Positions 148 through 18,857 of a stretch of DNA of 24,181 nt are shown piece after piece. Source of the stretch: a virus; the IMG/VR virus record IMGVR_UViG_3300045135_000418, positions 1-24,181 of that record; one strand, 5' to 3'. Position 1 is the first letter of the stretch. Each line of letters opens with the position of its first letter. Made by a program: the position numbers and the translations under genes. The notes beneath the pieces were generated by a model. That model was not told the DNA's origin. It saw nothing but the letters and a program-made list of their open reading frames with translations, and did no database searches.

Positions 148-3100
148 ATGGGTACTACAGTAGCTCCAATTGCCGGTTCAGTTACCTCTTACGCAAAATC
201 AGGGGGTTTAGGTGGTTTCGCCGTGGACCTCGGCTCAGTATACAACATGCTGAGCGATAGCGGCGGGGTTATGGGCGCTGCGAGGGACGACGCAGGGCAG
301 GATGAAGATTTTAGAATGCAAGGGGTTAGGACCGCTTCGCTTGAAGCTGTTCGTGCTTTACCCGAAGAAAAAATAGTTTCGATGCTAAACGCGGGAGAGA
401 TAAGCCCGCAACAAGTAGCTGACGCTTATGGAGTAACTGTAACGGATGTAAACAATTCTCTAGCAGATATAAACATGCAAGCTAGCTTAACCCCTGCTAA
501 TACTGGTGTTGAGACTGGTACCCCCTCGGCGGAAGCGGAAGCCCTTACTGCGTTAGGAGAAGAAGTTTCTGAACTTGTAAGTACCATAGCTAATTCTGAA
601 ACCGCTACAGAAATAAAAAACGCAGTAGAAGGGGCCGCTGAATACCTTAATACCGATTTTGCGGACGATATAGAAAGCGTCAAGGCTATAACCACTAATA
701 CAGTTACTGACTTACTAAATCCACAAGGCGTTACAGCGGGAGAAAAGTTTGGTAGCGCGCTTGAGTCTAACTTTGCTGGGAAAATTGCCGCCGATACAAT
801 TTCATCTACTCCTATTATTGGGGACTTATATGATGCGGTTACTGATTCTAATGTAACTTTTAAAGACGCGGCAGTTAACATAGCGTTTGACCAAGCAGGT
901 CTTGGTCCGGTTAAAGATATATTTGATAGTACCGGTATTTCTCAAGCTACCGGACTACAATCTGAAGACCGAATTAGCTACGCTGACGACATACTAGAGT
1001 TTCTTGACGAAACAGGAACTTTCTTTCAAGACCAAGGATTTAACTTTGCGAACGGGGTTCTTCTCGGTACTGAGATGATTTCTAACTCAGTAGGGGCCAG
1101 CAATGCTTTTTCTGACCTGTTACAAGAAGGACAAGATATATTATCAAACTCGATGTCCGAAGGCGCTAAAGCTAAAGCCGCCGAGATGTCTCAAATTATA
1201 AACGACGCTGAAGGAACCGGCTGGCAGAACGAGTTACAAGCGGGATGGGATGCGTTTTTAGTAGACCCTGTAGGGATGACGGTTAACGCTGCGGGTACTA
1301 TTGTACCTAGCGTAGCTGCGGCTGTAGCTGCTGGGCCTGCTTTAGGTGGGGTAATAGCGGGCGGTATAATGGGTGCCGGTACTGCTAAAGGTGCTTTATA
1401 TGAAGCTACGTATAATGGGTTAATAGAACAAGGTGTTTCCCCAGCGGAGGCTGAAGCTGCGGCGTTTGAAGCTCAAAGTTATACTGGGGACAACTTAGAT
1501 GCTATAGGGCTAAGCACTGTAACCGGATTACTTGCGGGTTCTACAGGTTCTGAAAGGTTAGTAAGTGGGGTATTAAGAAATATAGGCACTAAAAAGGGTC
1601 TAGCAAACGTAGTAAAAGAGGGGTTAATAGAAGCAGGTCCTGAAAGTTTAGAAGGTGCGGCAGAAGCAATAGCAACTAACAAAGCGCGCATAGCTAACGG
1701 CGAAGACATAAATATCTTAGATGGAGTATTTACTAACGCTGCTTTAGAAGGACTTGCTGGGAAAACTACCGGTGCTAGTGTTGCTGCTGTAACTAACGCC
1801 GTTGGAAGTGATGCGGAACTTGATGCAGAAATAGCTAACGCCATAACTGAAGCCGCCGTTGGGGATACTAGTACTCTTACTGGCGATGCTGCTACGGCGG
1901 CTGACATAATTGCAGGTACTGCTGATACAACTTCTGCCTCCAACGCTACTACTGACACAAATGTTGAAGCTGATGCGCTTACCGGGCTTACTGTACTCGG
2001 GAATGCAAACAACCAACTCAACAAAAAAATAGCAGAAATCAAAGGCATTGCAGATACCGTTATAGCCGAACAAGGTACAACCGACGCGGCTGTTGATTCT
2101 TTCCTTGAAGCAGTTGCCAGTATAGATGGTGTTACTTCTTCGGATATATCCGCAGCTACCGGACTCGACCCAGCTACCATAGATGCTCTTATTGCAGAAC
2201 GGGCTGTAAACGTAGTGGATGCTGCGGCGGACACTAGTAAAGGTATACCCACAAGTATTAGTGTTAACGGTACTTCTGGCGCCACTGTAGACTCTAACGC
2301 CTACCCAACAATGGGACCTCTTACATTAGAGCAACAAACTGCCCTTGATGCCGCCAATTCAAGCCTCACTACTGGCACTGGAGATACTACCCTTACTGGC
2401 ACTGGAGATACTACCCTTACTGGTGGAGATACTACCCTTACTGGTGGAGATACTACCCTTACTGGAGACGCAGCTACAGCGGTTGACATAATTACTGGCG
2501 GGACTGCTGATACTACTGTTACTGGCGGGGCCGCAGATACAAATGCTTTAAGTGCGGTGGATCAAATTCTTGTTTCTGAGTACGGGTATACAAATAACGG
2601 TGACGGCACGGTGTCTCCTCCTGCTAGAACAACCACAACCACAACCACAGCCGCAGATACAACCACAGCCGCAGATACAACCACAGCCGCAGATACAAAC
2701 GCTTTAAGTGCGGTGGATCAAATTCTTGTTTCTGAGTACGGGTATACAAATAACGGTGACGGCACTGTATCCCCACCTGCTAGAACAACTACTACCGTTA
2801 CTGGAGATACTACCCTTACTGGTGGAGATACTACCCTTACTGGCGCTGGAGATGCTGCTACGGCGGCTGAAATAATTGCAGGTACTGGAGATACTACCCT
2901 TACTGGTGGAGATACTACCCTTACTGGTGGAGATACTACCCTTACTGGTGGAGATACTACCCTTACTGGCACTGGAGATGCAGCTAGTACTACCAACGCT
3001 AGTACAAATGCGGCTATTACTACGGCAGCTACAGTGGCGGCAAATACGGCTGCAACAGCAGCAATAGCTTCAGGATCAACTGTAGCGGCAGCTACTACGG

Positions 3101-3960
3101 CAGCTACAAATGCGGCAGTAAATGCAGGGGCAAACGCTACGGTAGCAGCTAGTATAGGAGTCACCGCAGCTACAAACGCCAATACAAACGCCAATACAAA
3201 CGCCAATACAAACGCCAATACAAACGCCAATACAAACGCCAATACAAATGCGAACACAAACGCCAACACAAACGCCAACACAAACGCCAACACAAATGCG
3301 AACACCAATGCGAACACCAATGCGAACACCAATGCGAACACCAATGCGAACACCAATGCGAACACCAATGCGAACACCAACGCCAATACAAATGCGAACA
3401 CCAATGCGAACACCAATGCGAACACCAACGCCAATACAAATGCGAACACCAATGCGAACACCAACGCCAATACAAATGCGAACACCAACGCCAATACAAA
3501 CGTTAATACCAACGCCAATACAAACGTTAATACCAACGCCAATACAAACGTTAATGCAAATACGAACACCAACGCTAATACAAATGTTAATACAAATACG
3601 AACCCAAACGTCAACCCGAACCCGAACCCGAACCCGAACCCGAACCCGAACCCGAACCCGAACCCGAACCCGAACATAAACGTCAACGTCAACCCAGACC
3701 CGGACCCGGACCCGGCATTAACTCCTCTTACCGGTTTATCAAGTTCTGGGCAAGGTATGCGGGGTATGGGTACGGAACAAGTGGGGCTTGCGGATATTAA
3801 CGCTTACTACGACCCTGCGTTAAGTTTTGAAGAAAACATGGCTCGTATACTAGGCGTAATAAATACAAACAACCAAGATAGCACTCCGTACTACGGTGGT
3901 GGTATGATCCAAAACACTGATTTAGTTGACGAAATAGACCGTCTAATACGAGGATACTAA
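148..3960 (+). CDS. Large repeat-rich putative virion protein (1270 aa)
   Basis: No enzymatic motif is visible. The non-repetitive N-terminal half (about 1-700) holds two short HTH-like stretches (residues about 85-106, ISPQQVADAYGVTVTDV, and about 661-683) and a hydrophobic Gly/Ala segment at about 378-412 that could touch a membrane. The segment from about 365 to 550 has the same layout as residues 105-280 of the 2230-aa protein downstream. From about 745 the chain is repetitive: ten DTTLT units in three clusters, a duplicated block of about 34 residues (copies 52 codons apart), 35 tetrapeptides of NTNA type, ten NP dipeptides and DP dipeptides. A unique tail of about 80 residues follows (ending DEIDRLIRGY). 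AGG 139-141 sets the start. The next ATG is 1 bp after its stop. The context of large structural genes suggests a virion protein: internal/ejection protein or fibre-like spacer. The repeats have no TM or signal character. Function is inferred only. Confidence 0.75.
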   Translation: MGTTVAPIAGSVTSYAKSGGLGGFAVDLGSVYNMLSDSGGVMGAARDDAGQDEDFRMQGVRTASLEAVRALPEEKIVSMLNAGEISPQQVADAYGVTVTDVNNSLADINMQASLTPANTGVETGTPSAEAEALTALGEEVSELVSTIANSETATEIKNAVEGAAEYLNTDFADDIESVKAITTNTVTDLLNPQGVTAGEKFGSALESNFAGKIAADTISSTPIIGDLYDAVTDSNVTFKDAAVNIAFDQAGLGPVKDIFDSTGISQATGLQSEDRISYADDILEFLDETGTFFQDQGFNFANGVLLGTEMISNSVGASNAFSDLLQEGQDILSNSMSEGAKAKAAEMSQIINDAEGTGWQNELQAGWDAFLVDPVGMTVNAAGTIVPSVAAAVAAGPALGGVIAGGIMGAGTAKGALYEATYNGLIEQGVSPAEAEAAAFEAQSYTGDNLDAIGLSTVTGLLAGSTGSERLVSGVLRNIGTKKGLANVVKEGLIEAGPESLEGAAEAIATNKARIANGEDINILDGVFTNAALEGLAGKTTGASVAAVTNAVGSDAELDAEIANAITEAAVGDTSTLTGDAATAADIIAGTADTTSASNATTDTNVEADALTGLTVLGNANNQLNKKIAEIKGIADTVIAEQGTTDAAVDSFLEAVASIDGVTSSDISAATGLDPATIDALIAERAVNVVDAAADTSKGIPTSISVNGTSGATVDSNAYPTMGPLTLEQQTALDAANSSLTTGTGDTTLTGTGDTTLTGGDTTLTGGDTTLTGDAATAVDIITGGTADTTVTGGAADTNALSAVDQILVSEYGYTNNGDGTVSPPARTTTTTTTAADTTTAADTTTAADTNALSAVDQILVSEYGYTNNGDGTVSPPARTTTTVTGDTTLTGGDTTLTGAGDAATAAEIIAGTGDTTLTGGDTTLTGGDTTLTGGDTTLTGTGDAASTTNASTNAAITTAATVAANTAATAAIASGSTVAAATTAATNAAVNAGANATVAASIGVTAATNANTNANTNANTNANTNANTNANTNANTNANTNANTNANTNANTNANTNANTNANTNANTNANTNANTNANTNANTNANTNANTNANTNANTNANTNANTNANTNANTNVNTNANTNVNTNANTNVNANTNTNANTNVNTNTNPNVNPNPNPNPNPNPNPNPNPNPNINVNVNPDPDPDPALTPLTGLSSSGQGMRGMGTEQVGLADINAYYDPALSFEENMARILGVINTNNQDSTPYYGGGMIQNTDLVDEIDRLIRGY
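2383..2967 (+). repeat. Ten exact copies of a 15-bp unit encoding DTTLT
   Basis: The 15-mer gatactacccttact starts at 2383, 2407, 2428, 2449, 2806, 2827, 2890, 2911, 2932 and 2953. Copies within a cluster are 21 or 24 bp apart, so each period is a whole number of codons (linkers GG or GTG). Between the clusters lie related copies of a GDAATA.(D/E)II module, which also occurs near 1881. The DNA copies are identical and not merely synonymous, which points to recent expansion or homogenisation. Confidence 0.95.
2530..2789 (+). repeat. 104-bp direct repeat pair flanking an 18-bp triplet repeat
   Basis: Copies lie at 2530-2633 and 2686-2789, offset by 156 bp (52 codons). They encode the same peptide, which includes the stretch EYGYTNNGDGTVSPP. 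I count five differences, all at third codon positions and all synonymous. Between the copies is a tandem repeat of the 18-mer acaaccacagccgcagat, three times (TTTAAD units, about 2647-2697). The frame is kept throughout. Confidence 0.93.
3181..3600 (+). repeat. 35 tandem 12-bp units encoding Asn-Thr-Asn-Ala
   Basis: Thirty-five contiguous 12-bp units, all in frame: 29 encode NTNA, four NTNV, one NANT and one NTNT. A partial unit precedes them (3172-3180). Synonymous subtypes form blocks: aatacaaacgcc five times (3181-3240), aacacaaacgcc three times (3253-3288), aacaccaatgcg six times (3301-3372). Then a mixed higher-order pattern combines aacaccaacgcc, aatacaaatgcg and aacaccaatgcg. The blocks indicate growth by slippage or unequal recombination. 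The strand is rich in A and C and poor in T. Because the period is 12, changes in copy number leave the frame intact. Confidence 0.97.
3613..3672 (+). repeat. Ten tandem AACCCG hexamers encoding Asn-Pro
   Basis: Ten perfect 6-bp units follow the NTNA array directly. After a short N-I-N-V-N-V interruption the pattern turns into Asp-Pro dipeptides up to about 3714. The Pro-alternating chain should be extended and non-helical, which suits a spacer or stalk. That structural role is inference. Confidence 0.95.
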
Positions 3961-3961
3961 C

Positions 3962-4654
3962 ATGGGGATTATTGCGGACCTTAGAGACATAGGTAAAGAT
4001 TTTTTTACTGACGACGACGGACTTGATTGGAGTAACATCCTTAAGACAGGGGCCGGTGCTGCGGCAATATACGGAATCCTGAACCCCAACAACTCTCAAG
4101 GACTAGCTAGTTTCTTTGGTACTGGCGGGCGGCAACAACCGGTGGGGTACACTGAAGGCATACCTAAGTACACCCTAGGTAATGTATTAGACGATGGCAG
4201 TAGGCAACTTGCTGACGGGGCTTTTGCTACAACTATACCTCAGCAAATAGCAAACGAGCAGGGCACTATGGAAACAGTAAACGTGCCCCGCACTCCGGGA
4301 TCAATGGGTCGTAGGTACTTTACTGATACTTCTTTTTTACCCGCCACAGAAATGGCTATGGGCGGGATTGTAGGGTATGCAGAAGGGGGGCAACCTCAGA
4401 TTCAAAACTACTATTTAGGTGGCGCAACAGATGGTATGGCGGATCAAATCCCTGCTACAATCGACAATAGACAGCCCGCAGCGCTAAGTGATGGGGAATT
4501 TGTCATTCCTGCTGATGTGGTTAGCCACTTAGGGAACGGTAACTCTGACGCTGGAGCGAAGAACCTGTACAGCATGATGGAAAGGGTGCGCAAAGACCGC
4601 ACTGGCAACCCCAAACAGGGCAAGCAAATTGACCCTAACAAATACTTAGCGTAG
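3962..4654 (+). CDS. Putative phage virion/tail-associated protein (230 aa)
   Basis: I cannot assign an enzymatic role. Residues 131-145 carry MAMGGIVGYAEGGQP, a Gly-rich motif seen in many phage tape-measure and structural proteins. Residues 174-190 or so carry LSDGEFVIPADVVSHLG, another short module that commonly ends phage tail or tape-measure-like proteins. A basic tail (MMERVRKDRTG...) follows. The N-terminus is acidic with one short Ala/Gly hydrophobic stretch near residues 28-40. The start lies 1 bp after the upstream stop, and AGGA at 3951-3954, inside the previous gene, is its ribosome binding site. The GGIVGYA motif recurs in the 725-aa protein two genes on, so the two may share an assembly partner. 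That it is a virion component is inferred from motif and position. Confidence 0.75.
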   Translation: MGIIADLRDIGKDFFTDDDGLDWSNILKTGAGAAAIYGILNPNNSQGLASFFGTGGRQQPVGYTEGIPKYTLGNVLDDGSRQLADGAFATTIPQQIANEQGTMETVNVPRTPGSMGRRYFTDTSFLPATEMAMGGIVGYAEGGQPQIQNYYLGGATDGMADQIPATIDNRQPAALSDGEFVIPADVVSHLGNGNSDAGAKNLYSMMERVRKDRTGNPKQGKQIDPNKYLA

Positions 4655-4663
4655 GTAAGGGCT

Positions 4664-5584
4664 ATGAAATATTTTAATACTGGTGGTATTACAAACACAG
4701 GGCTAACGGGAGCTACTACAACAGCAGAAGAGTCCTCGCTATCTAGTTGGGCAGGCCCCTATGTAACCGATATGCTCGGGCGGGGGCAAGCGTTAGCTAC
4801 TCAGATGCCCTATACCCCATACACTGGACCTCTTACTCCGGGGGCATCTAGCCTACAAACTCAAGCGTTTCAAGGACTTGGTTCACTAAACATGCCTACT
4901 GCTGGTATGGGTGCGTTTAATCCTCAGTCTTTTACGGGCGCAGGGTACGCTGCACCTACTACACAACAGGCAGTGGCGGGAGAAATGGGGGCTTATACTC
5001 CGGCTTCAGATAATGTCGTACAGCAGTACATGACACCCTATCTACAGGGCGCACTTCAGCCACAGTACGATGCGGCAAACCGCCAAGCTTTAATAGCTGC
5101 TCAAAACCTTCAAAGCCAGTACGGTAAAGCGGGTGCCTACGGTGGGTCGCGTCAAGGTATTGCAGAAGCTGAGTTACAGCGCGGTTTACTAGATCGGATG
5201 GCGGGCATTACAGGCCAAGGCTACCAAGATGCGTTTAGCGCAGCCCAGAACCAGTTCAACACTGAACAAGATCGTCAGATAACTGCGCAACAAAACACCA
5301 ACCAATACGGTTTAGACGTATCTAGGGCCATGCAAGACGCTGGTATGGCGCAAAGAAACATTGCAGGCCAAGGCATTGCCGCAGACATTGCACAGTTTGA
5401 ACAAGAGCGAGACTACCCCTACAAGCAAGTGCAGTTTATGCAGTCATTACTACAGGGCTTACCGCTTGAAACTCAAAGCTATCAATACTACGAGCCTAGC
5501 GGCCTGCAAAGTTTGGCTGGCGGAGCGGCAACTGTAAAAAACATTCTTGATATATTGAATCCACCAGCCGAGGGCGAAAGCTAA
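4664..5584 (+). CDS. Conserved phage virion-type protein (306 aa)
   Basis: It resembles a family common in marine podovirus-like genomes, probably structural, with no known catalytic activity. Visible hallmarks are YTPYTGPLTPGAS near residue 50, a YMTPYLQGALQPQYDAANRQ segment at about 122-141, and a GAYGGSRQGIAEAELQRG segment near 157. A long Gln/Ala-rich helical stretch follows to about residue 255. There is no signal peptide or TM segment, and the C-terminus (VKNILDILNPP) is helical. AAGGG just ahead of ATG 4664 is the ribosome binding site, and the upstream stop is 9 bp away. The Gln-rich helices and the position between virion genes suggest a tail or internal particle component. Family resemblance is from memory and the role is inferred. 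Confidence 0.78.
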   Translation: MKYFNTGGITNTGLTGATTTAEESSLSSWAGPYVTDMLGRGQALATQMPYTPYTGPLTPGASSLQTQAFQGLGSLNMPTAGMGAFNPQSFTGAGYAAPTTQQAVAGEMGAYTPASDNVVQQYMTPYLQGALQPQYDAANRQALIAAQNLQSQYGKAGAYGGSRQGIAEAELQRGLLDRMAGITGQGYQDAFSAAQNQFNTEQDRQITAQQNTNQYGLDVSRAMQDAGMAQRNIAGQGIAADIAQFEQERDYPYKQVQFMQSLLQGLPLETQSYQYYEPSGLQSLAGGAATVKNILDILNPPAEGES

Positions 5585-5604: not shown

Positions 5605-7782
5605 ATGAACGGACTACAATCTCTCATGCCCCCTCGCCAGCAGCAGCGCGAGCAAGCTCGGCCTAGGCCAGCTCCTACACAAAATGACCCTCGTATGGCG
5701 GCAGCTATGAACGTGGTAAAAAACGACGTGCCTGAACCCTTGCAAGGTTTAGTAGACGAAAGTAAGTTTGCGCAAAAAGCCATGGAGCTACTACAGTCCG
5801 CAGGCGGCCAAGCCGCCATGGGCCAAGCTCCCGTTAACCCCCCTACAGTAAAGCAAAGGGTGGAGCAGCAGGCTATGGAGGGCGTTGCAGGATTACTATC
5901 TCGTCTAGCTCCGGGTATGCAGCAGCGTGGTAAACAAGTACAGCGTGCTCAAGCCCGTAAAATGCTGGGTGGCGGTATGCCTGCTATGCGCGCTCCTAAT
6001 ATGCAGCGTATGGCTGATGGCGGTATTGTTGGTTACGCAGACGGGGGGCAGCCTATGATGGGGCCGCCAGAACCTAATCTGCTACAGCGCATGGGTCAAG
6101 GGCTTAAAAACATAGGTGGCAACGTGGCGGAAAGCAGTGACATACTGCGAGAAGCTAAAGCTGGTATTGGTGTGCCCTACGAAAACCGCGCAGCCGCAAT
6201 ACAGCAAGTGCGCGATGAAATAGAAGCGCAGAAGCAAAACAGAGACCCTAACTTTATACAGCGCATGGGTCAAAAGCTTATGGATATAGGGCTTGACGTA
6301 CAAGAAAGTAATCGCATCTTGAAAGAAGCCTACAGCAATATAGGTAAGACCTACGAAGAAAAAGCCAAAGGCATGGCTATGGGCGGTGAGGTTAAAAGCT
6401 ATCAAGAAGGTACGGAAGTAGAACTTGATCCCGAATTGGCCGCTATAGCGCGAGCTATGCAGACGGACGGGGCAGAAACACGTTCTGGTCTTGAAGGAAG
6501 TCAAGAAACAGCGGCCTTCCTTAAAAATCTTTTTAGTCCTAATGAAGAGCTTATAGCGGCTCGCGAAAAACGTCGGGCAGAAAGAACGGCTTTGGCTAAG
6601 GCTGGAGTGGGAGTTCCTGAAATAAATGCCGCTCTAGAACGCCGAGACCAACAAAGAGCTGGAAGGGCCGCTGTTGGAGTCAATAGACCCATAGACTTAG
6701 GCGGAGTAGCGGGGCTTCTAAAATCTAGAACTAGTTCTTCTATACCTCCACGTCTTATAGACGACACCCCAGTCGGTACTGCTGAAGGTGGCCGAGGTGA
6801 CGTACAAAGTTCTACCCCCACTCCTGCGGCTAAACCTACGACTCGGGAACGGATGGGAAGTAGTATTGAAGACCTTCTCCGTACGATAAACCAGCCACAA
6901 GATACTACACGTCCGGAAATCGACAGTAGGCTAGAAGGTTTACGTGAGCCGACAATAGCGGCAGTTACTGAACGTATGACTCCGGGCTACGAAGAAAATG
7001 TAAGAAACCGCATACAGCAAGAAGCTGAGAAAGCCTATGCCGTACCGCAAGAGTACAGAGACTTAATAGAAGGACGCTTAAAAGAACTGGACGCCCCGCT
7101 CTATACTCCAGAAGAAGCTAAAAGTCGTAAAATTGACGAGTTACTTATGGGACTGGCTAGCTCTAATATGATCGCTCAAGGTGGGCCAAGAGCTACTAGG
7201 GGTATTAACGCCGTTACTGATGCAATTAAGAAAGACAGCCTTGACCGTGCGGGTAAAAAGTTTGAACTATCTAGTGGCCTACTCGGAAAAGACATGGAAG
7301 CTAGCCGCCAAGCGTTCGGTGAGGGGTTGGGAGTCTTAAAAACAGCAATGAACCAAGTATCTGTGGCTACGCAAATGGCGGGAAGCCTGCTAAACCAAGC
7401 AGACAATGCCGCGGCGGCTGAGGCGCTCCAGAAAAGGCAGGAGCGACTATCGACTATAACCAGTACTATCTCTGCGCTTGGGGTAATTGGTCAGCTAGAA
7501 CGTGCGGATTTGAATGCTTTGTCTAGTTCACAGCGCGCTGCCACTACGGAGCTATCTACTATACAGAGAGAGATTGGCGATCTGACTAACACTCTATCGT
7601 TTACCCCTGAAGAAAACAGAGCACCGATACAAACACAACTTGACGCGCTTAGAACGCAAGAGAGTGCCGCACGTAGGATTATTCAAGCAGTTAACAGTAT
7701 GCTAAACCTTGAAACAGATGGGGGTAGCGGAGCGGCGTCAAGTACTGCGGGAATCCAAACAGCCGCGGACTATTTTAAATAA
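5605..7782 (+). CDS. Putative internal virion / tape-measure-like protein (725 aa)
   Basis: The chain is mostly predicted helix rich in Gln, Ala, Arg and Glu. Residues about 136-150 carry MADGGIVGYADGGQP, matching the 230-aa protein upstream, and a degenerate copy (MAMGGEVKSYQEG) lies near 257-269. Between them is an internal duplication: NLLQRMGQGLKNIGGNVAES... (about 158-199) and NFIQRMGQKLMDIGLDVQES... (about 216-257). The C-terminal third (about 450-715) has EAKSRKIDELLMGLA, then long heptad-like helices that may form coiled coils. No catalytic motif, signal peptide or TM segment is visible. AGGA ahead of ATG 5605 is a good ribosome binding site. Length, composition and place suggest an internal or ejection protein, or a short tape-measure analogue. 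I cannot tell which. Confidence 0.75.
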   Translation: MNGLQSLMPPRQQQREQARPRPAPTQNDPRMAAAMNVVKNDVPEPLQGLVDESKFAQKAMELLQSAGGQAAMGQAPVNPPTVKQRVEQQAMEGVAGLLSRLAPGMQQRGKQVQRAQARKMLGGGMPAMRAPNMQRMADGGIVGYADGGQPMMGPPEPNLLQRMGQGLKNIGGNVAESSDILREAKAGIGVPYENRAAAIQQVRDEIEAQKQNRDPNFIQRMGQKLMDIGLDVQESNRILKEAYSNIGKTYEEKAKGMAMGGEVKSYQEGTEVELDPELAAIARAMQTDGAETRSGLEGSQETAAFLKNLFSPNEELIAAREKRRAERTALAKAGVGVPEINAALERRDQQRAGRAAVGVNRPIDLGGVAGLLKSRTSSSIPPRLIDDTPVGTAEGGRGDVQSSTPTPAAKPTTRERMGSSIEDLLRTINQPQDTTRPEIDSRLEGLREPTIAAVTERMTPGYEENVRNRIQQEAEKAYAVPQEYRDLIEGRLKELDAPLYTPEEAKSRKIDELLMGLASSNMIAQGGPRATRGINAVTDAIKKDSLDRAGKKFELSSGLLGKDMEASRQAFGEGLGVLKTAMNQVSVATQMAGSLLNQADNAAAAEALQKRQERLSTITSTISALGVIGQLERADLNALSSSQRAATTELSTIQREIGDLTNTLSFTPEENRAPIQTQLDALRTQESAARRIIQAVNSMLNLETDGGSGAASSTAGIQTAADYFK

Positions 7783-7800: not shown

Positions 7801-10800
7801 ATGCCTGTAGTTAGAATGCCAGATGGGGTACTAGTTAACTTCCCTGACGATATGCCTCGTGAAGAAATAAAGGGGTTAATAGCCAGTAAATTTCCTGAAC
7901 TTGCCGCCTCCGCTGCACCGGAAGAAGATACCTCACTACTGGGGTATGTTCCTGAAACATTTAAGGCTATCGGTGCGGGTGGTGCTGGTATGCTTGAGTC
8001 CGCGCTTACTGGTGCTGCCTTTCTATTGCCTGAAGAGCAAGAACAAGCTGCTCGCGCTCGCATTGCCGAAATCGGTGGGGGTGTACAAGAGTTCCTTGCC
8101 CCTGACGAAGCCTACGAAGGTACCTACCTAGACCTGATGCGTGGTGTGGGGTCTACCCTACCTTTCCTTGCTACTGGTTTTCTTGGCGCTCCCGGCCTTG
8201 TTGCTGGCGCCACTATGGGTGTTGGCGCAGGTGCAGGTGAAGCTGCCCAACGTGCTACTGCTGCGGGTGCTACTGAAGAAGAAATAAGTACTGCTGCTGG
8301 CTACGGTATGATTCCGGGCGCGTTTGAAATGGTAGGTCCGGCAAGGATTATTCGCCGTGCCCGTAGGGCGTTAGGTGGAAATACCGAAGAAGTAGCAGAC
8401 GCATTAAATAACAGTTTCAAGTCCAGACTTGCTAGGGTAAGTGAAGGCAGACTTGGCCGTGTAACTAGAGCAGCGATGGAAGAAGCAGCCCAAGAAGCCT
8501 CTTCAGAAGTACTCCAGAACTTAATTTCACAGGGTGTCTATGACCCCGATACCGGAACCTTCGAGGGTGTAGGTGAGTCCGCTAAGATTGGCGGCGGTGT
8601 AGGCGGTATCCTCCAGTTATTTACAGACCTCATAGTCGGTGGAAATCGCAGAGTGGGTAGGGCTGAAGGCGACGAAAGCGTATTTGAAGACGAACCCGCA
8701 ACAGAAACTCCTGCACCCAGTACTTTAGAGAGGCAGGATTCTCCTACCGTCCTTTCAGCAAACGACCTTGAGGGGCTAGGACTAGATTTAGACAAAGCCA
8801 CAGCAGATAAGCTGTTTGGGCTAGACTTGGCCGACCCAGAACAAAAAACACAAGCTAAGCGGATTCTTACTAACTACCGTAATAATCAAGCAGTACAGAA
8901 TAACAAGCCACAAACTGTGTCGCGCATAGACTCCTTGCTTCGCAGTGAGATATTCCAAGAGCCTGAAGAAGCTATTTTACGAAAACGTGAAGAACTCCCC
9001 CTAGAAGAAAGGATTAGGGTAAGACCCCCTGCTGAAGTACAGCCTGACCTTATTGACATCGCCGAAACTGAGCAGATACAGGAGGCGCTAGACGAAGAAG
9101 AACTAGCACAAATGCAGGCTGAAGAAGATGCGCAGCTAGCCTCCCAAGAAAGAGCAAAATCCGAAGTTGCCGCCGTACAGCAAGAAATGGAACTTGGTGA
9201 AGCTGACCGTCGTGTAGCAGAAAGGCGAGAGATGGAGACGGCCGAGAAACGTAGGCAAGTCCTCCTCCCCATCTTGGGTCGCGAAGATATTACAGACGCC
9301 GGAAACATCGGTAGGGCGTTTAGTGCTGAACTACGTAGGCAAGGATTCACAGATACTGAACCTACACAGGATGAGCTTGCAGCAATCACTCGCCGTTCGT
9401 ATGAACTGGAGCAAGCCGCAGGGGTAGAAACCGCGCAAGCTGCTGAACAGGCCGCAGGAACCGCCGGGCTAGAGGCTCTTATACCCGAACGTAGGACGAC
9501 TCCTGCCGCTCCAGAACTTACCGAGCAGGAACTCCAACGCGCAGAAAAAGCTCGTCTTAATAGGGAGCAGATGGACAGTGTTGGTCGTGGGGTAGAAGGA
9601 CAGCTCGAAATACCAGCCATTGAACGCCCTGAGCGCGCCGCCGCTCGTGCTGCCGAACCAGAAGCTACAGTAGCAGAAACTCCAAAAGCACAAAAAGTTA
9701 ATAAGGTGTTCTTCGATAAACTTAATGTCGCCCCTGCTGCCCCCATACGTAGGCGCACTCAGGGTATGGACACTGACAGCCCTGAATTCCGTGCCGAGCT
9801 GACTAATTTTGCGCGTAGTGCTCGCGTACCCGAACAGACTAAAATTAATATAAACAACTTCTTACAAGCCAGCCCAGAAGCTGCTGCGCAACAAGATTTG
9901 TTTGCTCCTACCACACCAAGGCGCACTATTTATGAGCGCGATGTAGCACGTCGTAGAGAAGAAAGAGCCGCTAAAAAAGTAACGGAAAGTACAACTACTG
10001 CGCCCGAAACTACTGCGCCCGAAACTACTACTCCTGTTGCTCCTGCTCCTGCTCCTACTCCTGCTCCTACTCCTGTTGCTCCTAAACCCGCACCCAAAAA
10101 GGCTACGCCACTAAAAGAAGAGGCCAAACCTAGCACCCCACCTAGGGTGCGCGCGCGTGCAAAGAAAGCTGCTACTACACCGCTGGAGAAAGTACAGGCG
10201 ACCAAGGTAACCAAGAACAATAAGTACACCCCAGAAGGGGCGATGAAAGGGTACTTAGACCTTGCGGATCAAGACATTGATCTAGCACTCCGTGAAATAG
10301 CATTCGATGCGGTTGTGCCTAAAGAATCTACCATCAAATCTGTAACTGCTAGACGCCAATCAAAGAGTGCCAGAAAGTGGGTAGAAGAAAACATGCCCGA
10401 GAATGTTCCGGCATTGGAGGCACTTACTGAAGAAGCGACTACAGAAGAGACTAAACGAGTACAGGAAGACCTACGCCGTTCCCCTAAGCGTCGGGCTGAT
10501 AATGTAGCGGCACGCAAGAAAAAAGAGGCGGCTGACCTTGAGGCTGTTAAGAGCTACATAAACCCGAAAGAAGATATAGCGGAAAACGACAGCCTGACCA
10601 TGGAAGTTGTGGACGACGTAATAGACTTTCAAAATGAGCCGTTACGTGCCCCAGAAGAAGTAGAACTAGATGTCGATAAGGCGGCACTCCGCGAACAGCT
10701 AGACATAGACATGGCCGCGTTTGAGGGCGATGTAAACCAATACCTGCGTGCGGATGCAGTAGCAGCTACTATGGCGACGGCTGACGCTTCGGTTGCCGAA

Positions 10801-13800
10801 GCAGTAAATAGAGGCAGCGTACTAAACGCGCTAGGCGCTATCTTCAAAACTTCCAAGAATTCCCAAGTCCGTAGTGTTGCCACGACTCTAGCCAAAGCTA
10901 TTAAAGCAGCAGGCGGAGTGCGAGTTACTGTAGTAGAAGACCTGACTGACTCTAGGGGCAACCAACTTGCGGGGGTTTACGACGAATCCACCGACACCAT
11001 ACTTATCAACAAAGCCATACCAGTAAGCACCCACGTTGTTCTTCACGAGGCGGGCCATGCAGCGACTGCTCAAGTACTTAATAACCCTAGTCACCCGACT
11101 ACTGTGGCGCTTACGAAACTATACAACGATCTAAAGGAATCTCTGCCAGACGAATACGGTATGACTTCACTTAAGGACTTTGTTGCCGAGGCGTTTGTTA
11201 ATCCCGAATTCCAAGCCAAGCTGGCTGCGTTTAAACCTAAAGGCCAACCCAAAACTGCATGGGATAAGTTCTGGTCCGCAGTGGGGCGTTTGTTTGGTAT
11301 AGACACAGCTTCTGCTAATACAGAAGTACAGGAACTTATAAACACACTCCTAGCCACTGCGCCAAATACTAGAAAGGTAACCACAGTACCCTCGGCTATC
11401 GCGAAAGGGAACAACGCAGAAGCAGCGACTCACCTAATGAGTAACGGTAAGGACTTCCTAAAAGACGCTCCGCCAAACACTGCTGAAGAGATATTTTCAT
11501 GGGGCAGTAAGACTGAACAACGCGTACGAGCTAACTTTTTGAATGGCGTGGGGCTTGAAGCTATTACTGACCTGCTCAAGATTAAAATCCCTGAAGCCAA
11601 AGACGTTGAGAAGATACTATATAAGATCGACGGCGCCCGCGTCGAAGGGATGAAAACATACAATGCGCTACGTGACGACATTATCAAGGCGTTTAAGGGT
11701 AGTCCTACAGATAAGAAAGCCTACAATCAGTTAGTATCTTTCTCTACCATCAACAAAATTGATCCTACTATTGACGAAGATAGGGTTAAGAAACATTGGT
11801 TGGTGTACGGAGAGCGTGACAGCAGCGGTAACCTTGTGCGCAAAGAAGTGTCGTTTGACACCAAGGCCAAGATGGGAGTCGCTAAGCGTAGGTTAGAGGA
11901 TAGGCTGGAACGAGAAAAGGCCGCTAATCCTGACAATGTTTCCCTTACTGAAATAGAGGCTATAGAGCCTACAAATGAGAACATTGCTAACTACGAAGAA
12001 GCCAAACGCTTGTACAACTCGCTATCCACAAGTACTCAGCGCGCGGCCTACACGAAATTAAGAGACTTTTATAAGGACATAAACGACCAGATTATTGCGG
12101 CAGAAGAATCCAACATAGAAAAATTGGAGCTGGATAAAGGCGCCAAAAAGACGATACGCGATACGCTGTTCCTTAAAAGACTGAAGACCGGGTTTATTGA
12201 CCCGTACTTCCCGCTAACACGTTCTGGAGATAATTGGCTAGAGTTCTCCTACACCGACGACAACGGACAAACAGTCTATGGCACAGGCTCTTTCGACACA
12301 GAGCTACAACGTGATCGCGCTATAGCCAAGCTCAAAGACCTACCTAACGTCGATGAGAACACCGTAAGAAAGCGGTCGCTGGCAGAGATACAGACTAAGA
12401 CCTACGATAACTCTATACCCATACCTTTCTTGACAGATTTAAGGAAGCAGATACAGGGGTTGGAAGTAAAGGACGCTGCCGCTAAAAAGCAAGTCGATGA
12501 GTTTTTGGCTGACCTTACGTTGCGCGCTTTGCCTGACCAGAGTCTCATACAGTCTAGGATGGTACGCCAAAACATCGCCTTCTTTGAGGGGGACGCAGTA
12601 GAGTCTTTTGATAAACGTGGTCCTCAATTTGTAAACAGTCTAGCTAACCTTACCTACCTTGTGGACCTAGAAAACGCTGGTAGAGTTGTTCGTGAGAAAC
12701 GTGATGCCCTACCGGAAAGCGAAGAGCTAGCGCGCGAAGCAGCTACGATAGTGGCGGGCACCAAAGAAGAAACAGGAAGGATGCAAGCCTTCGGCAGCTT
12801 GCCGAGCTATGTCCAGTTCTCTAAGAATCCTTTCTTGCCCGAATACGCTAGGTGGATGCGAGCGGGTACGTTTGTGTGGACCTTGGGGGCAAACATAAGT
12901 TCTACCGTAGTTAACGCGTCGATAATTCCTATCGTACTTCAGTCTAGGTTGTCTGGACAGTACGGACCTTTACGTGCGACTAAGGCTACATCTAGAGCAA
13001 GTGCGCTGTATGCAAGCTCATTCGGCAAAACCTCCAGAGAAGGATTAGAAGGAGAAGTACGAGAGCTAGGCGGGTTCTCTACTACAAACGATTTCTCCCA
13101 AGACCCAAAGAAAGAAGCAAAATTCGCTCCCATCGCTCCGCTTAACAAGTTGTTTAAAGAGCGGGGCATCGACACGCGTACAATATCGGGGGAGACATCT
13201 CAGATAGATAACCCTGTAACTCCTTGGATAAATAAACTTTCTTACTACTCAGGTTTCTTATTCAACCATTCAGAGCGCGCCATCCGTCAGATAAGCGCAA
13301 TCAGTACCTACATATTGGAGATCGAGAACCTTGTGGCTAAGGCCCGAGGAGTCAAAGAAGGTAGCGTCGCGTTTAAGGATATAACCCCAGAAGAGATCAA
13401 TACTTTTGGCGAACAGGCCGCAGAGACTGCGATAGACACCACTACCTACGTCAACACTTCAGCGTTGCTTACTACTGCTCCTCGCATAGCGCAGACAGGT
13501 GTAGGCTCTTTAATCTGGCAATACAAACGAGTTCCCGGCCAGTTCCTGTACACCCACCTGAGCATGATTAAGACGTTGTTCGACGACATGACAGGCAGGG
13601 CTAGAAACGAGGCGGAGCGAGAAGAAGCTAGAGTGCTAAGGAACACGTTCTTCTATCTTACTGCTACGGGTGCGGCGCTGGTAGGCGTTAAGGGTATACC
13701 CATGTACGGTACGGCGGTTGCGTTGATGAACTTGTTCCTTGAGGATGACGAGGACGACGCTAACACTATCATCGCTAAAATGATTGGGGAAGATAAGTAC

Positions 13801-14493
13801 TATGGGTTGATAGCTAGTATGGCAGGCATCGACATCACTGACCGTATTGCATTGACCAACCTTATGGTGCGTGACCGTGGCAACTATAAACCCAACAGCC
13901 AGATAGAAGGCTTACTTGAATCGTGGCTCGGCCCAACTTACGGGGTAGGCACGCGAGCTGCCGGTGGTTTTATAGACTTGTTTAGCGATGACCCCAAGAA
14001 TAAGGACAGAGCGATTGAAGCTATATTACCTACAGGCGCCTCCAACGTAGTTAAGTCTTATCGTTTTGCGACCAAGGGTTATGAGACAGGCCGAGGGGAC
14101 GCCATCATTACTGGCGAACTACCGGCAGGAGATGTGTTTAAGCAAGCATTAGGCTTCTCTCCCATCTCGACTAGAGCCGCACGAGATAAGCTATCGGTTA
14201 ACATCCGTAAGGATAGAGGCAGGAAAGAACGACGCAGCCGCATAATCGAGAAGATTACTTACGGCCTACAAAACGACAGGCCCGAACTAGTGACAGAAGG
14301 GTATAGTGACGCAGCCGAGTACAACGCAGACCACCCGTCCACTGCTATCAAGGCGTCTACAATAGAGCAGTCCATATCCGGAAAAGCTAGACGCTCAGCA
14401 ACTGCTAGAATAACGGGCGGCGCTCCGGTAGACAGGAACGTGCTTAACGAGATACTGGAATCGAACCGAGAGTTTGAGGAAGGGTTAGACTAA
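7801..14493 (+). CDS. Giant polyvalent virion protein with embedded HEAGH metallopeptidase motif (2230 aa)
   Basis: The N-terminus MPVVRMPDGVLVNFPDD is a short module frequent in large phage internal proteins. A Gly/Ala hydrophobic module follows (about 105-280). A charged coiled-coil region lies at about 414-490, and a Pro/Thr/Ala linker with basic end at about 729-792. The zinc-peptidase signature HEAGH is at 1082-1086, with a likely third ligand Glu1130 in FVAEAF. YFPLTRSGDNWLEF (1469-1482) is a motif typical of large phage polyvalent proteins. Hydrophobic segments lie at about 1691-1712 and 1949-1980, the latter followed by an acidic EDDEDD stretch. Known relatives are multidomain proteins thought to be injected with phage DNA. 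The peptidase could process virion proteins, the protein itself, or host targets. Start: GGGG 6 bp before ATG. It ends the rightward operon, with its stop codon touching the terminator. No transglycosylase motif was recognised. Confidence 0.85.
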   Translation: MPVVRMPDGVLVNFPDDMPREEIKGLIASKFPELAASAAPEEDTSLLGYVPETFKAIGAGGAGMLESALTGAAFLLPEEQEQAARARIAEIGGGVQEFLAPDEAYEGTYLDLMRGVGSTLPFLATGFLGAPGLVAGATMGVGAGAGEAAQRATAAGATEEEISTAAGYGMIPGAFEMVGPARIIRRARRALGGNTEEVADALNNSFKSRLARVSEGRLGRVTRAAMEEAAQEASSEVLQNLISQGVYDPDTGTFEGVGESAKIGGGVGGILQLFTDLIVGGNRRVGRAEGDESVFEDEPATETPAPSTLERQDSPTVLSANDLEGLGLDLDKATADKLFGLDLADPEQKTQAKRILTNYRNNQAVQNNKPQTVSRIDSLLRSEIFQEPEEAILRKREELPLEERIRVRPPAEVQPDLIDIAETEQIQEALDEEELAQMQAEEDAQLASQERAKSEVAAVQQEMELGEADRRVAERREMETAEKRRQVLLPILGREDITDAGNIGRAFSAELRRQGFTDTEPTQDELAAITRRSYELEQAAGVETAQAAEQAAGTAGLEALIPERRTTPAAPELTEQELQRAEKARLNREQMDSVGRGVEGQLEIPAIERPERAAARAAEPEATVAETPKAQKVNKVFFDKLNVAPAAPIRRRTQGMDTDSPEFRAELTNFARSARVPEQTKININNFLQASPEAAAQQDLFAPTTPRRTIYERDVARRREERAAKKVTESTTTAPETTAPETTTPVAPAPAPTPAPTPVAPKPAPKKATPLKEEAKPSTPPRVRARAKKAATTPLEKVQATKVTKNNKYTPEGAMKGYLDLADQDIDLALREIAFDAVVPKESTIKSVTARRQSKSARKWVEENMPENVPALEALTEEATTEETKRVQEDLRRSPKRRADNVAARKKKEAADLEAVKSYINPKEDIAENDSLTMEVVDDVIDFQNEPLRAPEEVELDVDKAALREQLDIDMAAFEGDVNQYLRADAVAATMATADASVAEAVNRGSVLNALGAIFKTSKNSQVRSVATTLAKAIKAAGGVRVTVVEDLTDSRGNQLAGVYDESTDTILINKAIPVSTHVVLHEAGHAATAQVLNNPSHPTTVALTKLYNDLKESLPDEYGMTSLKDFVAEAFVNPEFQAKLAAFKPKGQPKTAWDKFWSAVGRLFGIDTASANTEVQELINTLLATAPNTRKVTTVPSAIAKGNNAEAATHLMSNGKDFLKDAPPNTAEEIFSWGSKTEQRVRANFLNGVGLEAITDLLKIKIPEAKDVEKILYKIDGARVEGMKTYNALRDDIIKAFKGSPTDKKAYNQLVSFSTINKIDPTIDEDRVKKHWLVYGERDSSGNLVRKEVSFDTKAKMGVAKRRLEDRLEREKAANPDNVSLTEIEAIEPTNENIANYEEAKRLYNSLSTSTQRAAYTKLRDFYKDINDQIIAAEESNIEKLELDKGAKKTIRDTLFLKRLKTGFIDPYFPLTRSGDNWLEFSYTDDNGQTVYGTGSFDTELQRDRAIAKLKDLPNVDENTVRKRSLAEIQTKTYDNSIPIPFLTDLRKQIQGLEVKDAAAKKQVDEFLADLTLRALPDQSLIQSRMVRQNIAFFEGDAVESFDKRGPQFVNSLANLTYLVDLENAGRVVREKRDALPESEELAREAATIVAGTKEETGRMQAFGSLPSYVQFSKNPFLPEYARWMRAGTFVWTLGANISSTVVNASIIPIVLQSRLSGQYGPLRATKATSRASALYASSFGKTSREGLEGEVRELGGFSTTNDFSQDPKKEAKFAPIAPLNKLFKERGIDTRTISGETSQIDNPVTPWINKLSYYSGFLFNHSERAIRQISAISTYILEIENLVAKARGVKEGSVAFKDITPEEINTFGEQAAETAIDTTTYVNTSALLTTAPRIAQTGVGSLIWQYKRVPGQFLYTHLSMIKTLFDDMTGRARNEAEREEARVLRNTFFYLTATGAALVGVKGIPMYGTAVALMNLFLEDDEDDANTIIAKMIGEDKYYGLIASMAGIDITDRIALTNLMVRDRGNYKPNSQIEGLLESWLGPTYGVGTRAAGGFIDLFSDDPKNKDRAIEAILPTGASNVVKSYRFATKGYETGRGDAIITGELPAGDVFKQALGFSPISTRAARDKLSVNIRKDRGRKERRSRIIEKITYGLQNDRPELVTEGYSDAAEYNADHPSTAIKASTIEQSISGKARRSATARITGGAPVDRNVLNEILESNREFEEGLD

Positions 14494-17691: not shown

Positions 17692-18612
17692 TTAGTCATC
17701 GAACTCATCAAGTAAGCTCGCAAGATCAACATCTGCCGGTGCTGCCGGTTTCTTCTTTTTGCTGGCCTTGACCGTTGGTTCTTCTATTTCTTCCGCTACA
17801 GCCTCTACTGCCTTTGGCGCCTCGGGTGCCGGTGGTATTTTTAGATCGGGCAGTTTAGGTTCTGCAACGGGGGTACTATCTTCCTTTGGTTTAACACTAA
17901 GCGCAATAAGTTTTTCTGTCTCTTCCGCTTTTTGTTTATCCAAAGCCATAACTAGTTCGTTCTCCGCTAACATACGGGTAGGCTTAAAGCACAGCTTGGG
18001 AGTAGAAGACTCGGTATCAAAACGTATTTCTGTAAGTACCGCAGCCAAGGGAGCGCCTTGGCCATCTAAGTGCCGCGCGTAAGTCTGTAACCCCATCTTC
18101 TGCTTGTTATCGCCAAACACACTGGTCGCAGGAAGGGAGAGTTGGTAGGTTTGGTTAGACTTCACGTTGCCGTCTGCGTCAGCTAGCAGTAACGCCACCC
18201 GCTGAGAGAATCGGCAAGCTCGACCTTCGCCCATACCAGACCCTTTAATGTTTTGTGGGCAATCAAAACACGTATCCGACTGCCTGTCAGAAGCAAGCAC
18301 GTCGTCAGAAGGGCGACCACTACTTGTATCCGCAGACCAACATTTAGGGGGGTTAGTCTGTCCGGCCACATACTGGCCTTCGTAGTACATACGCGATACG
18401 GGTGCGGTCTTTACTATAACTGCACCTATGGCACGCTGCTCTATTTCGCCAACCTCTTGACCGTTAACGACTTTCCGGAAAACGCCTCCTCGGATGCTTA
18501 GTCGATTCATACCCCCCGACTGGCGCCCAGTTGCGTTAGTGTCCGGCTGTAGCTGAGCCAAAAGATTCTTGTACTCATCCGGCATGTTTTCAAACAAAGT
18601 TAATTCACTCAT
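17692..18612 (-). CDS. Putative single-stranded-DNA-binding protein with Cys cluster (306 aa)
   Basis: It probably coats single-stranded DNA during replication. Residues about 36-210 look beta-rich (LSIRGGVFRKVV, AIGAVIVKTAPV, TYQLSLPA, AVLTEIRF) and contain Cys91, Cys115, Cys118 and Cys133, a possible zinc site (CFDCPQNIKG). From about 235 the chain becomes Pro/Glu/Lys-rich and disordered, with a KKKK stretch, and ends DLASLLDEFDD. Acidic tails with an aromatic residue near the end are characteristic of phage SSBs such as T7 gp2.5, where they recruit partner proteins. Its ATGA overlap with the HTH gene upstream and its place just before the primase-helicase gene fit this role. I see no sequence signature that proves an OB fold, so the assignment rests on tail, Cys cluster and context. 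Confidence 0.6.
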   Translation of the reverse strand: MSELTLFENMPDEYKNLLAQLQPDTNATGRQSGGMNRLSIRGGVFRKVVNGQEVGEIEQRAIGAVIVKTAPVSRMYYEGQYVAGQTNPPKCWSADTSSGRPSDDVLASDRQSDTCFDCPQNIKGSGMGEGRACRFSQRVALLLADADGNVKSNQTYQLSLPATSVFGDNKQKMGLQTYARHLDGQGAPLAAVLTEIRFDTESSTPKLCFKPTRMLAENELVMALDKQKAEETEKLIALSVKPKEDSTPVAEPKLPDLKIPPAPEAPKAVEAVAEEIEEPTVKASKKKKPAAPADVDLASLLDEFDD

Positions 18613-18857
18613 ACATCTTCCTCATCGCTGAAATCCAGTTCTAGCTGTACTGGCTCGTTTTGGTTATCGTAAGTAGGTTCTGGCACTTCTTCCTTCAAAG
18701 CTGCTACCACCTGCGGGATACTAAATCGGTACGTATTGGCCACCTTAATAAAAGTGTGCTTTGGTATATACCCTTTAGCTACCCATTCGCGGACGGTAGG
18801 TACTTTGACGCAAAGATATTTAGCTAGCTCTTCTACTGGAACGTAGCTATCAGTCAT
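18609..18857 (-). CDS. Excisionase/MerR-type HTH DNA-binding protein (82 aa)
   Basis: A small DNA-binding protein with a winged HTH of the excisionase/helix_turn_helix_17 kind: YVPVEELAKYLCVKVPTV (about 5-22), then REWVAKGYIP and the wing around TYRFSIPQVVAAL. The acidic tail (QLELDFSDEEDV) is unusual for a DNA binder and may contact a partner. Its start and stop both overlap neighbours by 4 bp (ATGA), with GGAGG 5 bp before ATG, so it is tightly coupled to the coiled-coil and SSB-like genes. There is no integrase in the window, so a recombination-directionality role is not supported. A regulator or origin-binding factor fits as well. The fold is fairly sure, the role is not. Confidence 0.75.
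   Translation of the reverse strand: MTDSYVPVEELAKYLCVKVPTVREWVAKGYIPKHTFIKVANTYRFSIPQVVAALKEEVPEPTYDNQNEPVQLELDFSDEEDV

Follow-up and report, generated by a model that had tools for sequence, protein, structure and literature searches.

A length-variable, asparagine-rich tandem array in a candidate ejection-apparatus gene of a probable short-tailed phage

Phage ejection-protein genes are described as highly variable in a review of the subject (PMC8954989). Low-complexity regions have also been surveyed across 102 phage proteomes, where the largest region was 115 aa long and Asn was under-represented (PMC6821194). The locus described here lies in the window, by which we mean the whole stretch of viral DNA that was analysed (24,181 bases), and probably comes from an uncultured, short-tailed phage. 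One of its genes, the array gene, encodes a spacer of the same kind as the surveyed regions, but 182 aa long and 48% Asn. Gene order and the class of phages matched suggest that the source is a P22-like podovirus. The reading that we favour, and consider somewhat probable, is that the array is the chief component of a low-complexity, uncharged tether of variable length, which holds the C-terminal domain of a virion protein belonging to the ejection apparatus, within a P22-like gene order.

The array, its gene and the gene neighbourhood

The array gene carries several tandem arrays ahead of a conserved C-terminal domain and is followed by a block of genes on the same strand (Table 1). A sequence-only reading of the window had described 35 in-frame 12-bp units at 3181-3600, and this exact count was reproduced. 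The description of these units as Asn-Thr-Asn-Ala holds for 29 of the 35 but not for the rest, which lie at the 3' end (four NTNV, one NANT and one NTNT). When read in the TNAN phase the array begins at 3172, and its 27 peptide-perfect units follow one another with every nucleotide difference among them at a third codon position. TRF scores for the array were 331-368, far beyond chance. Blocks of five, three and six identical neighbouring units were found as described, and adjacent units were identical 13 times versus 4.6 expected in shuffles (P = 5e-5), a block structure that bears out the proposal of recent expansion. The higher-order pattern was also recovered, with an excess of identical units at lags 2, 3 and 4; together with the adjacent excess, this is consistent with local duplication, one or a few units at a time.

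Table 1. Features of the window and of the array gene with its downstream neighbours
Feature	Position	Strand	Basis or remark
Window	24,181 bases		virus record IMGVR_UViG_3300045135_000418
Array gene	148..3960	+	1270-aa ORF; no Pfam or PHROG match
Gly/Ala-rich predicted helical module, aa 356-585 of array protein	1213..1902	+	phmmer, alignment, AF2
GDTTLTG x4, 21-bp array	2379..2465	+	TRF
TTTAAD x3.2, 18-bp array	2641..2698	+	TRF
GDTTLTG, 21-bp array, ~8 copies	2802..2969	+	TRF
TNAN (=NTNA) 12-bp units, 27 in succession	3172..3495	+	only synonymous third-position variation
Degenerate 3' array end	3496..3603	+	TNVN/TNAN alternation, ANTN, TNTN
(AACCCG) x10.5, Asn-Pro repeat, (PN)n	3613..3675	+	TRF, 100% match
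INVNVNPDPDPDP, PD repeats, spacer end	3676..3714	+	
Conserved C-terminal domain (TEK/QxGLADI ... YGGG ... DEIxRLI)	3718..3957	+	phmmer and alignment
230-aa gene, SDGEFVIPADVVSHLGNG domain	3962..4654	+	fused to array gene product in several relatives
306-aa protein, phrog_4287 'DNA ejection protein'	4664..5584	+	E 1.3e-9
725-aa gene, same block	5605..7782	+	no family match
2230-aa giant protein	7801..14493	+	distantly like PLxRFG / 'DarB-like antirestriction' proteins of ~60-kb cultured phages

The whole spacer runs from the NTNA array through the PN array into a brief stretch of PD repeats, contains 87 Asn residues and adjoins the conserved C-terminal domain of ~65 aa. Charged residues make up 1.6% of it versus 18% of the first 740 aa of the array protein. 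Only 3 contigs among 2.9 million in IMG/VR had runs of at least four consecutive NTNA codon units, in a scan that possibly left out the window's own record and its near twins. NTNA runs in 15 bacterial genome contigs had only 4-10 units, and the runs themselves, to which this comparison was confined, revealed no link to the window phage. Since the 12-bp unit is stop-free, long open frames also cross the array in other frames (2718-3692 on the minus strand and 3248-3679 in a second plus-strand frame), and these show no signs of being genes. Elsewhere in the array gene, a NALSAVDQILVSEYGYTNNGDGTVSPPARTTTT segment occurs twice (2545-2636 and 2695-2790) with a 65-bp exact repeat, and a single copy was seen in the truncated relative L002.

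Relatives of the window were gathered via the gene for the 306-aa neighbour, which yielded 54 loci, most of them with a counterpart of the array gene upstream. The order in relatives is a gp10-like gene, a gene for ~219 aa, the array gene and the ejection gene; the window itself starts just upstream of its array gene. The upstream genes in relatives encode a phrog_3287 / P22 gp10-like 'stabilization protein', a label based on the annotation of matches and on the PHROG category 'virion structural protein', and the ~219-aa protein. The array gene thus sits between tail and ejection genes, in keeping with the earlier placement of the array among phage virion genes, and a virion role is predicted for it from this context. 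In searches of PHROG and Pfam the array protein resembled no known ejection protein, its only common feature being a module that it shares with the giant protein of relatives, and tblastn of its first 717 aa against 50,697 phage records gave no match.

For this module (aa 356-585), phmmer found homology to the N-terminal part of the relatives' giant downstream protein (E ~1e-22 to 1e-17). AF2 predicted it to be all-helical, with a pLDDT of 42 that is too low to support a fold search, and its profile gave only chance-level matches to PDB sequences (E 0.3 or worse). In relative L008, the array gene (2942-5569) has a different module from that in the window's array gene, one akin to the N-terminus of the giant protein of the window (E ~5e-29). 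Modules thus seem, from their sequence similarity, to have been shuffled between array genes and giant-protein genes. The window's giant protein matched the cultured-phage proteins at tblastn E values of 1e-22 to 1e-8 among the matches listed, and its gene contains short 15-, 6- and 12-bp arrays at 9993-10075. Further along the window, an 82-aa protein (18609-18857, minus strand) resembles by eye a putative MerR/excisionase-type helix-turn-helix protein.

The array had also been proposed to form a length-variable and perhaps surface-exposed spacer; an adhesin-like segment is a related possibility. Its length polymorphism does resemble that of repeat-bearing surface proteins. However, the gene order is that of tail-tube-like and ejection proteins rather than fibres, the array protein shares a homologous module with the relatives' giant downstream protein, and no fibre or adhesin family was matched in PHROG or Pfam. 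We therefore regard a surface location as very improbable; of the original proposal, the in-frame length variation described below stands and surface exposure finds no support.

Length variation among close relatives

Array lengths were compared among related phages, as the sequence-only reading had suggested, and they differ: the spacer is 182 aa long in the window, 238 aa in L013 and 246 aa in L007. The latter two loci, from different samples, are 99.3% identical over 11 kb. Outside the spacer they differ by 25 substitutions and zero indels in 10,293 bp, while inside it a pairwise alignment with costly gap opening placed four indels of 36, 36, 12 and 12 bp; MAFFT had introduced scattered, spurious compensating gaps. 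As all four indels are whole units and all lie in the spacer, its length varies naturally with the frame kept, and the expectation that copy number changes without frameshift holds for these near-identical phage contigs. In a homologous gene of another close pair (L055 and L056), the sole indel in 6.4 kb was one 15-bp APVAQ unit. Both pairs thus show what defines a coding minisatellite, namely in-frame units whose number varies between close strains. Alignments of two further near-identical pairs (L025/L026 and L015/L017) were without indels, so length change is not constant; in L025/L026, 6 of the 33 substitutions clustered in the array. Very close phages therefore differ in spacer length and unit order, in steps of whole in-frame units.

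The compared loci are all metagenomic assemblies, and their short-read origin is a caveat for exact unit counts, which are provisional because exact internal repeats reach 74 bp. These repeats could mean that the number and order of units are products of short-read assembly. In addition, L013 and L007 start, and L002 ends, inside the upstream array, which indicates that arrays do break assemblies. Independent samples nevertheless show arrays with the same 5' unit order and clean in-frame ends, 74 bp is below the usual read length, and the order is anchored by many distinct unit subtypes. An assembly artefact is consequently the least probable account of the array, and a very remote one.

Different arrays in homologous genes

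The NTNA array is one case of a wider pattern in which differing arrays occupy the same gene. Counterparts carry SVTP followed by SP (L008), PTST (L044), APVAQ (L055), TTP (L015), poly-G (L010 and L037), KAAAD (L014), KLAAD (L045) and other repeats. Since the KAAAD and KLAAD arrays are charged and helix-like, disorder is not universal. In L008, L010, L037 and L014, the repeat or poly-G is immediately followed by a homologue of the window's C-terminal domain; this domain was found at 36-90% identity in 7 relatives by phmmer and alignment. Many relatives have their array at another position in the gene, which, like the charged arrays, counts against the tether reading, and in others its homology is not clear. 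Lineages thus differ in their unit sequences, and some of them retain the C-terminal domain. A distant phage (L005) has a short NTNA array in the gene directly after its gp10-like gene, which may reflect common ancestry or convergence. In a tree of the neighbouring gene, array types, with labels assigned by eye, did not track deep clades on inspection. L002 and L010 share 93.5% identity for 2.6 kb until the array gene starts; from there on their proteins look very different by eye.

Tandem repeats cover 10.2% of array genes and 0% of the ~219-aa and phrog_4287 neighbours; in gp10-like genes, picked by homology, they cover 42 of 65,820 bp. A separate 12-bp array (GAGCCCGTTGTG x12.6) lies downstream of the ejection gene in L040, at 12337-12486.

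The main rival to the tether is that the array is a neutral product of slippage, which grows and shrinks without function and is tolerated between domains. Whole-unit indels and block structure are what such a process would leave, and so is the difference in unit sequence between lineages. Against this, two independent arrays show point changes within their units that are all, or nearly all, synonymous. Random point changes in the units of the window's array would be expected to be synonymous in 22-30% of cases, whereas the 27 perfect units differ from one another only synonymously. In the unrelated L008 array, the SVTP units vary as CCG/CCT, TCA/TCG and ACA/ACG, which is again synonymous except for two units with CCA for ACA/ACG. 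Peptide units are thus kept while their codons drift. As a sign of selection on the units this bias is suggestive rather than proof, because few independent point changes underlie it. It also counts against neutrality that nearly all relatives with the array gene have some low-complexity stretch there. We consider a purely neutral array unlikely, though it deserves to be taken seriously.

Function of the spacer and comparison with known systems

Structure prediction of the array, which had been suggested earlier, drew a helix and so counts against a disordered tether. In single-sequence AF2 of the array region, the NTNA part became a helix of 147 residues (fragment residues 45-191; pLDDT ~80), and the PN part was left without structure. 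Asn and Thr are poor helix formers. We judged the predicted NTNA helix unreliable, both for this reason and because single-sequence AF2 is not to be trusted on repeats. Taken at face value, the helix would favour a rigid ruler or rod, in which a long helix, or some other regular fold, would fix one dimension of the injection device through its length. A possible further hint is the counterpart of the array protein in DSL-LC04, a complete genome from lake water, as this protein (WJZ48115.1) is annotated as a 'tail tape measure protein'. It matched tape-measure PHROGs only via residues 684-750, in its C-terminal SDGEFV region, and the window proteins had no such match. The poor helix propensity of the NTNA residues, the adjoining PN part, predicted to lack structure, the Pro-rich or Gly-rich arrays of relatives, which are unlikely helices, and the variation in length between near-identical phages all argue against a rod, which we hold to be quite improbable.

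Returning to the tether, we suggest that replication slippage or unequal recombination among units of 6-12 bp would generate the length variants. Selection may then keep a hydrophilic, non-globular chain of no particular sequence, with composition conserved instead. The spacer would tie the conserved C-terminal domain to the rest of the protein as a flexible tether, and the chain might be easily threaded through the tail channel at ejection. A role in the virion, a disordered spacer and its possible tuning to the host are all points that we infer. More speculatively, and with rather little confidence, repeat turnover could be a general property of the array gene across a large group of aquatic phages, in whose lineages new short-peptide arrays are repeatedly invented and the length and chemistry of the tether are quickly tuned, perhaps to host envelopes. 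At this locus the rapid evolution of in-frame repeats in a putative phage virion gene can be measured on a concrete example, since both length variants and independent replacements occur in nature. It allows one to ask whether a spacer of the ejection machinery is selected for length, composition or neither.

Among individual genomes, DSL-LC04 provides a syntenic counterpart, which lies before a phrog_4287 protein and ends in an SDGEFV C-terminal domain. In contrast to DSL-LC04, the window has its SDGEFV domain in a separate gene. The DSL-LC04 protein has no NTNA array but its own array of ~5 copies of GPSYAGMDLSSAQGTLG. Its gene order is the same as in the relatives, except that two other small-to-medium genes replace the ~219-aa gene.

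The circumsporozoite protein of Plasmodium contains the NANP repeat, an Asn-rich tetrapeptide array. The likeness is in form only, as organism and setting differ, and we claim no homology. Our limited literature search found no direct precedent for arrays of variable copy number in phage virion proteins, which is weak evidence of absence. The array protein has no sequence match to any P22/T7-type ejection protein, and the part of the review available to us does not mention long tandem arrays (PMC8954989). Like the P22/T7-type systems, the locus has a neighbour that matches phrog_4287 'DNA ejection protein' and an order that follows a gp10-like protein, and the array gene shares the high variability noted in that review (PMC8954989). 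Neither coding repeats nor the variability of ejection proteins is new in itself; the apparently new element is that one putative virion gene has had its array type replaced repeatedly and also shows whole-unit polymorphism.
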